A stretch of 43,150 bases of DNA from Candidatus Shapirobacteria bacterium (lineage in GTDB: Bacteria > Patescibacteriota > Microgenomatia > UBA12405). Both the position numbers and the translations under genes were made by a program. This document shows positions 15,680-38,019 of the stretch, in pieces (within the stretch, counting starts at the first letter, position 1; each line of letters begins with the position of its first letter). Where the stretch lies: assembly GCA_018062705.1 (NCBI GenBank), contig JAGORQ010000006.1, forward strand, positions 1 to 43,150. Reading direction: 5' to 3'. Below the pieces are notes generated by a model. That model was given only the letters and a program-made list of their open reading frames with translations. It did no database searches and was not told where the DNA came from.

Positions 15680-16001
15680 CTCCCCCTCTAAGATTCGAAC
15701 TTAGGACCAATCGCTTACAAGAAACCCTGAAATTTCAATCAGGCTTGGACTATATTATATTCCGACGATGTCGGAACTCGGGTGCTCTAGGGTGTAATCA
15801 CCTAGTCTCTGAACCCTCCTACGCTAAAGCTTCGGCGGGGCAATGCCCTCTTGGACTTTAACTAAGGCGCGGCTGCGGGTTGCCATATCGCCTCATCGGC
15901 GACTTAGGTTTCACGCAATTCTCCCGATTTTTCAATTCCGATTACTCGGAAAAGCTGCTCTTTAGGAACAGGCGAGCGCTCTACCACTGAGCTAAGGGGG
16001 A
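15680..16001 (-). tRNA. tRNA-Asn(GUU) interrupted by a group I intron
   Basis: Exon 1 is 16001-15968 (34 nt), exon 2 is 15717-15680 (38 nt). Spliced: acceptor TCCCCCT/AGGGGGA, D-arm GCTC/GAGC, anticodon stem CTCGC/GCGAT (one C-U mismatch at 27-43), loop CTGTTAA giving anticodon GTT, T-arm CTAAG/CTTAG with TTCGAAT, discriminator G73, which is typical of Asn. CCA is not encoded. The intron splits the anticodon between positions 35 and 36. A -10-like TATAAT lies at 16038-16048 upstream on the same strand. Confidence 0.85.
15718..15967 (-). other. Group I self-splicing intron in tRNA-Asn
   Basis: 250 nt, no internal ORF. The 5' splice site follows U35; exon CUGU can pair with GCAG in the intron to form P1 with the required U-G wobble at the splice site, and the intron ends in G. 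Core elements are visible: the R/P7 sequence GTTCAGAGACTA and, later, the S-like ATATAGTCC before the 3' end. Size and position suggest the tRNA-type (IC3-like) subgroup, which is an inference. Confidence 0.85.
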
Positions 16002-34204: not shown

Positions 34205-35659
34205 TTATTTTATCCCCATGACGGTTAACACTTCGTCTAGCGTTTTGGATGCTTCGGCGCGGGCTTTACGCGAGCCTTCGTCGATAATTTGATTGAGTAA
34301 ATCGGTTTTACCTTCAAACTCAGCACGTTTGGCGCGGATGGGGTCTAAGAATTTATTGAGAGCTAGGGCTAATTTAGTTTTGACTTCAACGTCACCAACA
34401 GTCCCCTTTTGATAGCGATCTTTGAGGTCGGCGACTTCGGCCAAATTATCATTAAAAGCATCGTGATAAATAAAAACTGGGTTGCCTTCGATATGACCTG
34501 GGTCGGTGGGACGAATCCGGGTGGGGTCGGTATACATACCTTTGACTTTTTTGTTAACTGTATCGGCATCATCGGACAAATAAATACAGTTGCCAATGGA
34601 TTTGCTCATTTTGGCCTGACCATCGGTTCCAACTAAAGTACCACCGTCACCAATGAGGGCTTCGGGGATAGGAAAAATGTCTTTGAAGCCTTTGTTGAAA
34701 TCGCGGGCAATTTCCCGGGTGACTTCGATATGGCTTTGCTGATCTTTGCCCACCGGCACCAAATTGGCCTTGACCATGAGAATGTCGGCAGATTGCAGAA
34801 CCGGGTAATTAAGTAGACCAAGAGAAGGTGCCTCAAGATGGAGATCGTGCATGACATCTTTGAGAGTAGGGACACGTTGGGCTCGAGGAACACTAATTAA
34901 ATTGCTAAAAATAGTGGATAGATAGGTAACTTCTGGTACTCGGCTTTGTTGATAAATGACTGATTTGGCGGGGTCAATACCAACGGAAAGATAGTCAAGA
35001 ACTAGCCCCCTAACCCGGTCGTTGAGACCCGAGGTCTTGTCGAAGGTGTTGGCGGTAGTTAAAGTGTGCAAATCGGCCATGATAAAAAAGCACTCATATT
35101 CATCTTGAAGGCGGACGCGGTTTTTGAGCGTGCCAACATAGTGACCTAGATGGAGTGGACCGGTAGGCCGGTCGCCGGTGAGGATACGAGGTTTAGCCTT
35201 GATGGTGGCGATATCAACAATTTGGGAATTGGGGATTTTCTTGAGGTCGGCTGATTTGTATTTTATAGTTACCTCCAAACTACCAGAGCCACCGTAAATA
35301 AACTCTTTTTCAAGTACTTTCTGATCTATTAAGGTCTGCAATCCTGTAATCATGTGAGCCGCTCCACGCTCTAAACCGGTTATTTGGCTAAACTCGGTAG
35401 GACTGGCGATTTGGAGTTTTTTGACACCCAACATCTCTTTAATTTTGGGAATGTTTAGCTCGGTATCACCACGACGAATAAAGGCAAAATATTTTTCATC
35501 CGCTTTCATGACTAAAGTAGCGGAACTTTCACTAACTGGTAAACCTAAATAATTCATGACCTCGGCTACTTCGACAAACAACGGATGGTCAATGAGAACA
35601 TGCTCAATTTTGAGCTCGGTTAATTTTTGAGAATAGTTGGAAACAATTTGGTTGTTCAT
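34205..35659 (-). CDS. trpS: Bacterial-type tryptophanyl-tRNA synthetase with N-terminal YbaK-like deacylase domain
   Basis: 484 aa, about 150 longer than usual TrpRS. Residues 1-145 match the YbaK/ProXp fold: SSATLVMKADEKYF with Lys52 in the place of the catalytic YbaK Lys, then NIPKIKEMLGVKKLQIASP, GLERGAAHMITGL and FIYGGSGSLEVTI. Residues 155-484 are a full class Ic TrpRS: HIGH motif PLHLGHY (168-174), KMSKS at 350-354, and ADLHTLTT and VPVGKDQQSHIEVTREIAR regions. The first domain would hydrolyse mischarged tRNA; TrpRS is not known to need editing. It follows an archaeal-type TrpRS gene by 16 nt. Confidence 0.92.
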   Translation of the reverse strand: MNNQIVSNYSQKLTELKIEHVLIDHPLFVEVAEVMNYLGLPVSESSATLVMKADEKYFAFIRRGDTELNIPKIKEMLGVKKLQIASPTEFSQITGLERGAAHMITGLQTLIDQKVLEKEFIYGGSGSLEVTIKYKSADLKKIPNSQIVDIATIKAKPRILTGDRPTGPLHLGHYVGTLKNRVRLQDEYECFFIMADLHTLTTANTFDKTSGLNDRVRGLVLDYLSVGIDPAKSVIYQQSRVPEVTYLSTIFSNLISVPRAQRVPTLKDVMHDLHLEAPSLGLLNYPVLQSADILMVKANLVPVGKDQQSHIEVTREIARDFNKGFKDIFPIPEALIGDGGTLVGTDGQAKMSKSIGNCIYLSDDADTVNKKVKGMYTDPTRIRPTDPGHIEGNPVFIYHDAFNDNLAEVADLKDRYQKGTVGDVEVKTKLALALNKFLDPIRAKRAEFEGKTDLLNQIIDEGSRKARAEASKTLDEVLTVMGIK

Positions 35660-35675
35660 AAAGACTAGTGAAATT

Positions 35676-36848
35676 TTAACATTTGTAATCCAAAAGCGAT
35701 GAGAGCGGAGTGCTTAATATAAATTTGTCAAGATTACTTTCTTTATTTTTTTGTTTTGATTGGTGGGCTTCAATTAATTCGCAAACAAAGATCGTAGTAA
35801 TTTCTTTTAGTTCTGACATGGTGATTTGGCCATGTAAATAGCGTGATTTAATATTTTTTATAAATTTGTCGTCGGGATGGTGAAAATTTAGTAGGGAAAA
35901 AACCGAACAAATGTCGGGAATGCCACCAAGCTCTTGATAAACATCGAGTGCAGATACGGCACCGGTATAAGCCCGACTAATTTTACGACGAATATCGTCA
36001 GAAGAATCGCTAAGATAAATGGCAGTGTTTGGTTTTGAGGCCGACATTTTGTCGTCGGGTCCGAGAAGGCTGGGTAAAAAACGAATAACTAGTTCAGATG
36101 GAGGAGTCATGCCGATTTTTTTGGCGACGTCTCGCGCCAATAAAATATAAGGGTGTTGATCAATTCCAACGGGAATAAGGGTCACTTTTGGACCTCCAAA
36201 TTCGGGGAGTTGAGGCAATAATATTTGAGCCATTTGGACAACACCACGATAAAATATTTGGCCGGGAGTAGTGAGAGAGTCATCACCAAATACCTGACGT
36301 AATTGATTAAACGAAACATGCTGACTAAGGTACATAGCAAAGTTGTAAAGTTGAGGATATTCGGAGTCGATAAATATATGAGTTTTACTGGAATCAAAGC
36401 CAAATTTAATAATATCTGGAAGGATTGAAGTGCGGGCAATTTGACGACTTTGGGCGAGTGAACCAATCTTGCCATCGACCAATGATTCATCATTTGTGAG
36501 AGGAATAAATAGTCGACCTCCAAGTTTTTGGAGATTGAGGAGTAAGTCAAACAGGGCTTTGTGTCCCAAGTGAAGGGGTGATGAGGGATTGAGTCCAGAG
36601 ACAACTACAAATTCCTGCCTCTTGGCAATTTTTTCAATTATTGATTCTAGGTCAAGGTGGGCGATGGCGATATTGCGACGAAAATGGGGTGGCTGAAGTT
36701 CGAGAGGCAAATAGGCTTTGATTTTGTCGAGACTAGAGAGGCCGTTTTTGGTGGTCTCGTATAAATAATAATCCTCTAGTCTTTTTTTGATGACCAATTT
36801 GGATTGATATTCTTGGTGTGATTGGGCAATAGCCTGCGGACTGTTCAT
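35676..36848 (-). CDS. Archaeal/eukaryotic-type tryptophanyl-tRNA synthetase
   Basis: 390 aa. HIGH motif SSPLHLGHKAL (89-99), signature LIPVGIDQHPYILLARDVAKKIG, and KMSAS at 267-271 (DDKMSAS), which is the archaeal/eukaryotic version rather than KMSKS. C-terminal part RAYTGAVSALDVYQELGGIPDICSVFSLLNF fits the same group. Class Ic enzyme charging tRNA-Trp. A second TrpRS in tandem with the bacterial-type one is unusual in a reduced genome. ATGA overlap with the preceding gene. Confidence 0.9.
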   Translation of the reverse strand: MNSPQAIAQSHQEYQSKLVIKKRLEDYYLYETTKNGLSSLDKIKAYLPLELQPPHFRRNIAIAHLDLESIIEKIAKRQEFVVVSGLNPSSPLHLGHKALFDLLLNLQKLGGRLFIPLTNDESLVDGKIGSLAQSRQIARTSILPDIIKFGFDSSKTHIFIDSEYPQLYNFAMYLSQHVSFNQLRQVFGDDSLTTPGQIFYRGVVQMAQILLPQLPEFGGPKVTLIPVGIDQHPYILLARDVAKKIGMTPPSELVIRFLPSLLGPDDKMSASKPNTAIYLSDSSDDIRRKISRAYTGAVSALDVYQELGGIPDICSVFSLLNFHHPDDKFIKNIKSRYLHGQITMSELKEITTIFVCELIEAHQSKQKNKESNLDKFILSTPLSSLLDYKC

Positions 36849-37804
36849 AGGTTTTTTAACTCAATCAATAACTTAGTTATTTTCTCGATAGCTAAACTTT
36901 TTAGTTTTTTTGGATTTGAATAAATATTATTTTTGTAAACAGGAAACTCAGATTCTTCGTTTTTTAACTTTTCTGCCATATCGGTAATAAACAACAAATC
37001 TAATATTGGATTTGGTAAATTTGGGTTGGTAGTGATGTAAGTATCGTCAATTAGTTGCTTAACTTTTTCTATTGATGTATTTAAAATTATTCTGAAATCC
37101 TGCATTTGGTTACTCCCAGCTTTATATGGGGTCAGCCCAAATTCTTCAATTTCCGGATGCATCAAAAAATAAGAAAAATCTTGGCCTAAAGGAAATGTCG
37201 GTGTCAGATAAATACTTTTTAATTGATTAAGTTTTAATTTTTTACAAATAATTTTGGCAGCTAGGTCATAATATTTTTCTCGGGGTGGACCGATTTTAAT
37301 ATCAAACATTGTCCCAGTGGCTACAGCTTCAAATCCATAGCGAAAACCAGTCTCCTCTTCTTGCTTGATTTTATTTTTTAATACTGTTTTAGATAATAAT
37401 TCAATAACTTTCTGATTGTTTTGTCCTGCACTCTCAACTAATTTAATTCGCTCTTTTATTTGTTCCGAGTCGAAAAGTTTGCTCATTAAAACAAAATTGA
37501 TAGGTAAATTAAAATGTTTTTTCAGCTTTTCACAATATGCCAGACGACTATTTCCTACTTCGTCAATGTCACAATTCAGTTTTTGACTTGATTTGTTAAT
37601 TCCTGAGGCAATGTCGGCAATTACAACTGTTGATTCAATTTTAATATTTGATCTAGCTAGTATTCGATGGAGTAGTGATAAGAAAAAATAATATTTAAGA
37701 GAGTCTAGGGTCATGCCGTGAGAATCATATGTTTCGCCATAAAAACACCTCCTGTTTGTCAGGCTATTTTTCAATTTACTTACTATCAAATTGTAATTGG
37801 TCAT
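36845..37804 (-). CDS. Uncharacterised protein of the Trp operon
   Basis: 319 aa from ATG 37804. The frame is open to 37864, but that part is the tRNA-Trp gene. Not recognised. A Rossmann-like strand STVVIADIASGINK follows an N-terminal helix, and segments such as FDIKIGPPREKYYDLAAKI and YLTPTFPLGQDF recall the order (not the motifs) of class Ic synthetases. There are no HIGH or KMSKS motifs. If real, this would be a synthetase-like paralogue, as cyclodipeptide synthases are; that is speculation. It starts 2 nt after the tRNA 3' end and overlaps the TrpRS start by 4 nt. Confidence 0.75.
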   Translation of the reverse strand: MTNYNLIVSKLKNSLTNRRCFYGETYDSHGMTLDSLKYYFFLSLLHRILARSNIKIESTVVIADIASGINKSSQKLNCDIDEVGNSRLAYCEKLKKHFNLPINFVLMSKLFDSEQIKERIKLVESAGQNNQKVIELLSKTVLKNKIKQEEETGFRYGFEAVATGTMFDIKIGPPREKYYDLAAKIICKKLKLNQLKSIYLTPTFPLGQDFSYFLMHPEIEEFGLTPYKAGSNQMQDFRIILNTSIEKVKQLIDDTYITTNPNLPNPILDLLFITDMAEKLKNEESEFPVYKNNIYSNPKKLKSLAIEKITKLLIELKNL

Positions 37805-37806
37805 AG

Positions 37807-37879
37807 TGGGTGGAAATGGGTTTGAACCATTGTCGCCGGTTTTGGGGACCAGCATTCTAACCAACTGAACTATCCACCC
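37807..37879 (-). tRNA. tRNA-Trp(CCA) with C33
   Basis: 73 nt, no encoded CCA. Acceptor GGGTGGA/TCCACCC, D-arm GTTC/GAAT, anticodon stem CTGGT/ACCGG (one T-G), loop CCCCAAA, so anticodon CCA with C at 33 where U is near-universal; T-arm AATGG/CCATT with TTCAAAC; discriminator A. The 5' end is 5 nt after the attenuator terminator and the 3' end 2 nt before the next ORF. Confidence 0.85.
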
Positions 37880-37883
37880 AAAT

Positions 37884-37904
37884 AAAAAACCCGCTTTCGC
37901 GGGT
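37884..37904 (-). terminator. Attenuator terminator of the Trp operon
   Basis: Minus-strand stem ACCCGC-GAAA-GCGGGT followed by T6. Its 5' arm can alternatively pair with the antiterminator strand at 37947-37957. Confidence 0.88.
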
Positions 37905-37957
37905 GTAGATATTTTTGGAAAAACTAAGGATTTACGATATTAAAACATCTCCCGCGA
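37897..37957 (-). promoter_or_regulatory. Antiterminator of the Trp attenuator
   Basis: Leader strand TCGCGGGAGAT (37957-37947) pairs with ATCT-ACA-CCCGCGA (37910-37897): 7 + 4 bp with a 3-nt bulge, about 36 nt loop. Forming it removes the 5' arm of the terminator. The strand lies in leader-peptide codons 15-19, six codons after the Trp pair. Confidence 0.8.
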
Positions 37958-38003
37958 GCAGGCTTGAGTTGCACCACCAAGATTGAGAGACGATTAATTT
38001 CAT
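37932..38003 (-). CDS. Trp leader peptide with tandem Trp codons
   Basis: 23 codons plus TAA. Codons 9 and 10 are both TGG, the only Trp codons. ATG is 7 nt after an extended -10 (TGC-TATAAT, 38016-38011), so it is probably translated as a leaderless start. Stalling at Trp codons would leave the antiterminator strand free; finishing at TAA would cover part of it and let the terminator form. This is the classic trp-attenuation design. Confidence 0.85.
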   Translation of the reverse strand: MKLIVSQSWWCNSSLLAGDVLIS

Positions 38004-38010
38004 TGGAGGA

Positions 38011-38019
38011 ATTATAGCA
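38011..38019 (-). promoter_or_regulatory. Extended -10 promoter of the Trp operon
   Basis: TGCTATAAT on the minus strand. No good -35 is seen at 17 nt, consistent with an extended -10. The same TATGCTATAAT string precedes the L25 gene (38700-38710, plus). Confidence 0.65.

Follow-up and report, generated by a model that had tools for sequence, protein, structure and literature searches.

A predicted leader-peptide attenuator sensing Trp-tRNA in front of an archaeal-type tRNA-Trp/TrpRS operon of a Candidatus Shapirobacteria bacterium

In Streptomyces coelicolor, trpRS1, which encodes an auxiliary and antibiotic-resistant tryptophanyl-tRNA synthetase (TrpRS), is controlled by ribosome-mediated attenuation. 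This would be the nearest functional parallel to the element described here. Candidate attenuators have also been predicted upstream of trpS2 and leuS in Streptomyces, and the same paper cites the pheST attenuator of gamma-proteobacteria (PMC1262725). As at our locus, a leader peptide with cognate codons, an antiterminator and a terminator precede an aminoacyl-tRNA synthetase gene. However, these systems are from another phylum, their synthetase genes come without a tRNA gene, ORF1 or a second synthetase, and no sequence relation has been shown. The trpLE(G) attenuator of Sinorhizobium meliloti has a leaderless trpL (PMC7298713). It resembles the leader in the window (the whole 43,150-nucleotide stretch of DNA analysed) in its consecutive Trp codons, its mutually exclusive RNA structures and its leaderless translation, the last being only probable in the window. 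Conversely, the S. meliloti attenuator controls Trp biosynthesis, whereas the window has a tRNA and Trp-charging enzymes. Neither trpB nor trpE was found in the genome (95% complete); hence, the organism is probably a Trp auxotroph.

The operon behind the element is itself known. Mukai et al. (2017; PMC5370408) found the order tRNA-Trp(A73)-ORF1-TrpRS-A1-TrpRS in Microgenomates, pointed out that the proteins are free of Trp and suspected Trp-dependent regulation. No attenuator or leader was reported in that work ('attenuat' occurs 0 times in the text). Our literature search, which left most subscription journals outside its scope, brought up no paper that describes leader-peptide attenuation in CPR bacteria (Patescibacteria). 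These bacteria account for much of bacterial diversity and, to our knowledge, little is known about their gene regulation. The mechanism that we propose is classic. The novelty lies in the lineage, in a tRNA gene and an archaeal-type charging pair being gated in this way, and in the breadth.

The element and the operon are on the minus strand (Table 1). An earlier note on this DNA had described an extended −10 element, a 23-codon frame with Trp at codons 9 and 10, an antiterminator and a terminator; all were confirmed base by base. Strand 1, absent from that description, has its partner in the GGGAGAT of strand 2 and completes the classic set of 1:2, 2:3 and 3:4 helices. The leader ATG, at position 38003, is 7 nt downstream of the −10 box. 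Hence, the transcript probably starts at, or adjoining, the ATG. The frame is probably leaderless because a Shine-Dalgarno sequence has no room.

Table 1. Features of the leader and of the operon downstream, in window coordinates.
Feature	Position	Strand	Remarks
Extended −10 promoter element TGC-TATAAT	38011–38019	−	Without a good −35
Leader ORF MKLIVSQSWWCNSSLLAGDVLIS*, 23 codons and TAA	37932–38003	−	Probably leaderless
Strand 1, GTCTCTC	37985–37991	−	Inside leader frame, before Trp codons; pairs with strand 2
TGG TGG, codons 9–10	37974–37979	−	Putative stall site
Strand 2, TCGCGGGAGAT	37947–37957	−	Common to protector (1:2) and antiterminator (2:3)
Strand 3, ATCTACACCCGCGA = ATCT-ACA-CCCGCGA	37897–37910	−	Common to antiterminator and terminator
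Intrinsic terminator (3:4), ACCCGC-GAAA-GCGGGT-T6	37884–37904	−	
Second tRNA-Trp(CCA)	37806–37879	−	G1-C72 and A73 (archaeal identity)
ORF1 of Mukai 2017	36845–37804	−	Class Ic aaRS-like; function unknown; without Trp residues
Archaeal-type tryptophanyl-tRNA synthetase (TrpRS-A1)	35676–36848	−	Without Trp residues
Bacterial-type TrpRS	34205–35659	−	N-terminal YbaK-like domain; without Trp residues

The T-run of the terminator is only 4 nt from the start of the tRNA at 37879. A promoter would not fit into 4 nt, and the tRNA is therefore unlikely to be transcribed from a start downstream of the terminator. The gene upstream of the leader is divergent. With this arrangement, and the only fitting promoter upstream of it, the terminator has no obvious other transcript to stop. 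Two inferences follow from the anatomy. To have a terminator separate the tRNA from the only fitting promoter is sensible only if termination is conditional, and control cannot be translational for the first product, because that product is a tRNA. Membership of the attenuator class calls for a short leader ORF in which codons for the regulated amino acid are clustered, for an antiterminator and a terminator that exclude each other, and for regulated genes that act on the sensed amino acid. The window has the WW pair, one strand common to both structures with a 1:2 protector in addition, and Trp-charging genes downstream.

The controlled genes had been given as a tRNA-Trp and two TrpRS genes. 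These are indeed seen downstream, along with ORF1, although the operon and its archaeal-type TrpRS had already been published (PMC5370408). All the parts that define the Mukai operon are present: a tRNA-Trp with G1-C72 and A73, ORF1, an archaeal-type TrpRS and then bacterial trpS. Gene order and archaeal tRNA identity are the same as in the published operon; unlike there, trpS carries the YbaK-like domain. A housekeeping bacterial-type tRNA-Trp lies on another contig (G000:C41:1346-1416). Together, ORF1, TrpRS-A1 and TrpRS contain 0 Trp residues in 1,193 aa, against about 12 expected from the Trp share of long frames in the window. This is as expected for genes needed during Trp starvation.

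ORF1, of 319 aa, has no Pfam match, and Pfam and PDB sequence searches gave nothing convincing; a homologue compared with viral_contigs had no match either. Its predicted structure is a TyrRS-like class Ic fold (mean pLDDT 78), for which the best PDB match by Foldseek is the TyrRS of N. equitans (E 3.6e-9, TM-score 0.66 on the query). The published prediction was without a Rossmann domain (PMC5370408). We dropped the idea of a cyclodipeptide synthase because Foldseek gives TyrRS-like class Ic folds. As modelled, the fold fits a pseudo-synthetase partner of TrpRS-A. ORF1 is present in 7 of 374 genomes of the class; homologues are at loci L056, L057, L058 and L070-L073.

We folded the leader from successive 5′ ends, mimicking masking by the ribosome. 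The free leader folds into 1:2 and the terminator (−30.2 kcal/mol). With a ribosome placed at the Trp codons, so that just the RNA downstream of it can pair, the antiterminator forms (−27.7 kcal/mol); once pairing is confined to RNA past the stop codon, the terminator forms (−11.5 kcal/mol). These are the structures that the attenuation reading of the earlier note leads one to expect. The geometry on which it relied holds for the stalled ribosome, which frees strand 2 for 2:3. It holds less well at the stop codon, said there to place the ribosome over the antiterminator strand. The attenuator class also asks for a stop at which the ribosome covers strand 2. Here the stop (leader nt 70–72) is 13 nt beyond strand 2 (nt 47–57), so a ribosome resting there would cover strand 2 only in part. 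Re-pairing of 1:2 behind this ribosome may share the work.

We conclude with high confidence that the element is a ribosome-mediated, leader-peptide transcription attenuator that senses Trp-tRNA, in the absence of any transcript, ribosome or reporter data. The start site, the stalling, the termination and the direction of the response, including that translation of the leader alters termination, are inferred. Transcription would begin on the leader ATG or no more than a few nt away, with a ribosome translating the leader behind RNA polymerase. When charged tRNA-Trp is scarce the ribosome would stall at codons 9–10, covering strand 1. Strand 2 would then be free to pair with strand 3, no terminator would form, and tRNA-Trp(A73), ORF1, TrpRS-A1 and bacterial TrpRS would be transcribed. 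When Trp-tRNA is plentiful the ribosome would run through strand 2 to the stop. With strand 2 masked, or re-paired with strand 1, the 3:4 terminator would form 4 nt before the tRNA. Without translation, 1:2 and 3:4 would form and transcription would also stop. Hence, the operon is predicted to be read through mainly under scarce Trp-tRNA.

About 15 of 35 genomes of the family, and G051 of another family, have leaders of the same kind in front of trpS and/or tRNA-Trp. The same operon is preceded by a leader in Ca. Shapirobacteria CG2_30_35_20 (G032) and, across a scaffold gap, in G019. Elsewhere in the family the leader is in front of ordinary trpS and/or tRNA-Trp (G017, G021, G005, G031, G012, G009, G013, G015, G024, G026 and G033); in G029 it is at a contig end. 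In several relatives, too, tRNA-Trp is within a few bases downstream of the terminator. The relatives' genomes are drafts. About half of the family genomes gave no match; some are incomplete and others may truly lack the leader.

All 15 complete leaders retain Trp where the ribosome would stall, as WW or as W followed by Arg or Gln. Conservation of both the tandem Trp codons and the stems had been set as a check. The Trp and both helices pass it, but the pair itself is reduced in several relatives to a single Trp codon, often followed by Arg. Otherwise, the leader peptides share only short motifs (SQSWW, SRSWR or SFYWR; ..AGD.. or ..SGD..). In 14 of 14 family leaders the start codon is 6–10 nt past a TGn-extended −10 (TGn-TATAAT), and no Shine-Dalgarno sequence fits in any of them. 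These two properties make leaderless translation of the leader likely. Outside the family, leaders differ in length and in the position of the stop; within it, the leader of G005 ends after 14 codons. The related tRNA-Trp-ORF1-TrpRS operons of G172 and G167 gave no WW leader, and none was seen in archaeal copies. Hence, the ORF1 operon does not by itself include the attenuator. The distribution of the leader is separate from that of ORF1; the leader follows trpS and tRNA-Trp in the Shapirobacteria-type family. Inside the operon of G032, before bacterial trpS, there is a second leader-like element (L051 6063-6174; G032:C30:25062-25173), with a 6-base assembly gap where Trp codons would be expected.

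We measured covariation with a swap test. The energies of the 1:2 and 2:3 duplexes formed by each leader's own partners were compared with those of partners exchanged between leaders, in 50,000 permutations. For 15 leaders own pairing was better in 50,000 of 50,000 permutations for both helices; mean energies were −14.9 (own) versus −11.6 (swapped) for 1:2, and −17.6 versus −13.7 for 2:3. Relatedness among the leaders inflates this test. The non-redundant set agrees: with nine divergent leaders, the own value was reached in 1 (1:2) and 8 (2:3) of 50,000 permutations. RNAalifold on a MAFFT alignment recovered only part of 2:3, with two compensatory pairs; its consensus is of little use because the helix registers shift. 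Our claim rests on the swap test and not on that consensus. On this comparison of sequences, compensatory changes have preserved helices 1:2 and 2:3. Together with the stall-site Trp, this supports the reading as Trp attenuation.

A covariance model built from eight Trp leaders only (R1) was run over 374 genomes of the class. It finds leaders with His, Thr, Lys, Phe/Tyr, Cys and Trp codons before matching genes. The codon cluster matches the downstream gene in 21 of the 38 matches examined; the permutation mean is 4.2, and 21 was never reached in 200,000 permutations. The clusters were assigned by eye with the genes already known, and so not blind. About 17 of the 38 are without a matching gene, and some of these are probably false. 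The His leaders precede hisS in seven cases confirmed with NCBIfam. One, MNFTNYFVHHTHTVVTNRRGAVLA* (L154), is in the genome studied here at G000:C14:5884-5765, with one gene between leader and hisS. The suggestion that this organism has few other visible regulators therefore needs softening; it has at least this one more such element. Further His-codon leaders (HHTHTVV...) with a terminator are before hisS at L138, L139, L156, L158, L159 and L167, and in several genomes His leaders are close behind tRNA-His. R1 also finds Thr codons before thrS, Lys before class I lysS, Phe before pheT, Cys before cysK, Phe/Tyr before DAHP synthase, and Trp before trpE and a trpB-like gene.

A broader model (R2) was run over 380 genomes of the phylum. 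It adds Ile codons before an ileS-like gene, Phe before pheS and Lys before lysS. Outside the class, it finds W..W before trpS (G573 and G549) and a run of Asn before an asparagine synthase-like gene (G597). The names of the genes behind these added leaders were read from sequence and not profile-scanned, E-values are rough because calibration was short, and several phylum matches are again without a matching gene. In the genome studied here R2 rated only the Trp and His leaders well; a weak match in the window at 31189-31080 (minus strand) was no convincing leader. We think it likely that attenuation is general in Patescibacteria (CPR). One scaffold, consisting of a short frame, a GGG-rich strand 2 and a terminator, would be re-coded for Trp, His, Thr, Lys, Phe/Tyr, Cys, Ile or Asn before matching synthetase or biosynthesis genes. 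The Trp version described here would gate the archaeal-type tRNA/TrpRS pair, thus sensing a product of its own operon.

Could the locus be a plain terminator beside a chance short frame, with no switch? Short frames are common in AT-rich DNA and terminator-like sites are not rare, 0.4 being expected by chance in 500 bp. However, we scanned 1.19 Mb of strand sequence for a WW frame, a terminator and a 2:3 complement of at least 6 nt, and every match was a leader of this same type. Shuffling window sequence in triplet blocks left no match in 1.04 Mb. A chance origin, which we find scarcely credible, is also contradicted by the conservation and covariation, by the codons being specifically those for Trp, and by the location between promoter and tRNA. 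Similarly improbable, in our judgement, is a T-box, or another riboswitch binding tRNA or a ligand, that would detect uncharged tRNA-Trp or Trp directly and without translation. T-boxes of Firmicutes do have the same kind of target genes, and a related genome has a weak match (L073; 36.1 bits versus a gathering score of 93). In this stretch, though, the T-box covariance model (RF00230) had no match, even at E up to 10, and the leader is short for a T-box. Moreover, such a riboswitch would leave unexplained the conserved Trp-containing frame with its start codon adjoining the promoter, and the matching codon clusters before other amino-acid genes. The Rfam family with the same logic is Trp_leader (RF00513). 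The leader aligns to it over the full length with 26.9 bits (E=0.0024), below the gathering score of 41, and is not a member by the Rfam criterion.

A switch that depends on the ribosome need not sense Trp-tRNA in particular. It could respond to translation in general, that is to whether the leader is translated or not, or to inhibitors. Since the terminator form is also what the free leader adopts, translation as such would be needed for expression, and the likely leaderless start could add control of its own. Against this, leader codons match the regulated genes across many genomes, and we consider a merely general response very unlikely. An attenuator sensing Trp-tRNA is the reading that we retain. 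It provides a concrete, testable sensor for a puzzling operon, in a bacterium with both bacterial and archaeal Trp-charging systems. If the wider pattern is true, it would give a first map of amino-acid control in a hard-to-culture phylum, from sequence alone. The codon cluster would then name the sensed amino acid, aiding annotation of unknown downstream genes.

Several other observations were made. Leader peptides rich in Trp, Phe/Tyr, Lys, Cys, Thr, Ile or Asn codons are at loci L140, L144, L145, L146, L149, L150, L151, L152, L164, L165, L166, L170, L173, L188, L190, L191 and L209, spread over Patescibacteria; the genes behind them are trpE, trpB-like, DAHP synthase, lysS, cysK, thrS, pheT, pheS, ileS-like and asparagine synthase-like. 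In two different classes, at L147 (G257) and L198 (G400), Cys/Thr-rich leaders (NCTCTT and TSSTCTAC) precede genes that appear to be related and whose function is unknown; the metabolite concerned may be readable from the leader. The sub-threshold T-box match at L073 (11687-11830, plus strand) comes from a Microgenomates genome, where it precedes a ValRS-like gene, and CPR bacteria may thus use T-boxes as well. A T-box proposed by eye in L072, from a GGTGGCAC motif, was unsupported by Rfam. The window also has a group I intron match (RF00028) at 15726-15977 on the minus strand, with 51.3 bits against a cut-off of 50. Finally, a AAGTAACTTAAGTTACC-type repeat is just upstream of the promoter (38061-38025, minus strand); such repeats are also found at G000:C49:1633-1669 and upstream of the leader of G017 (L077).
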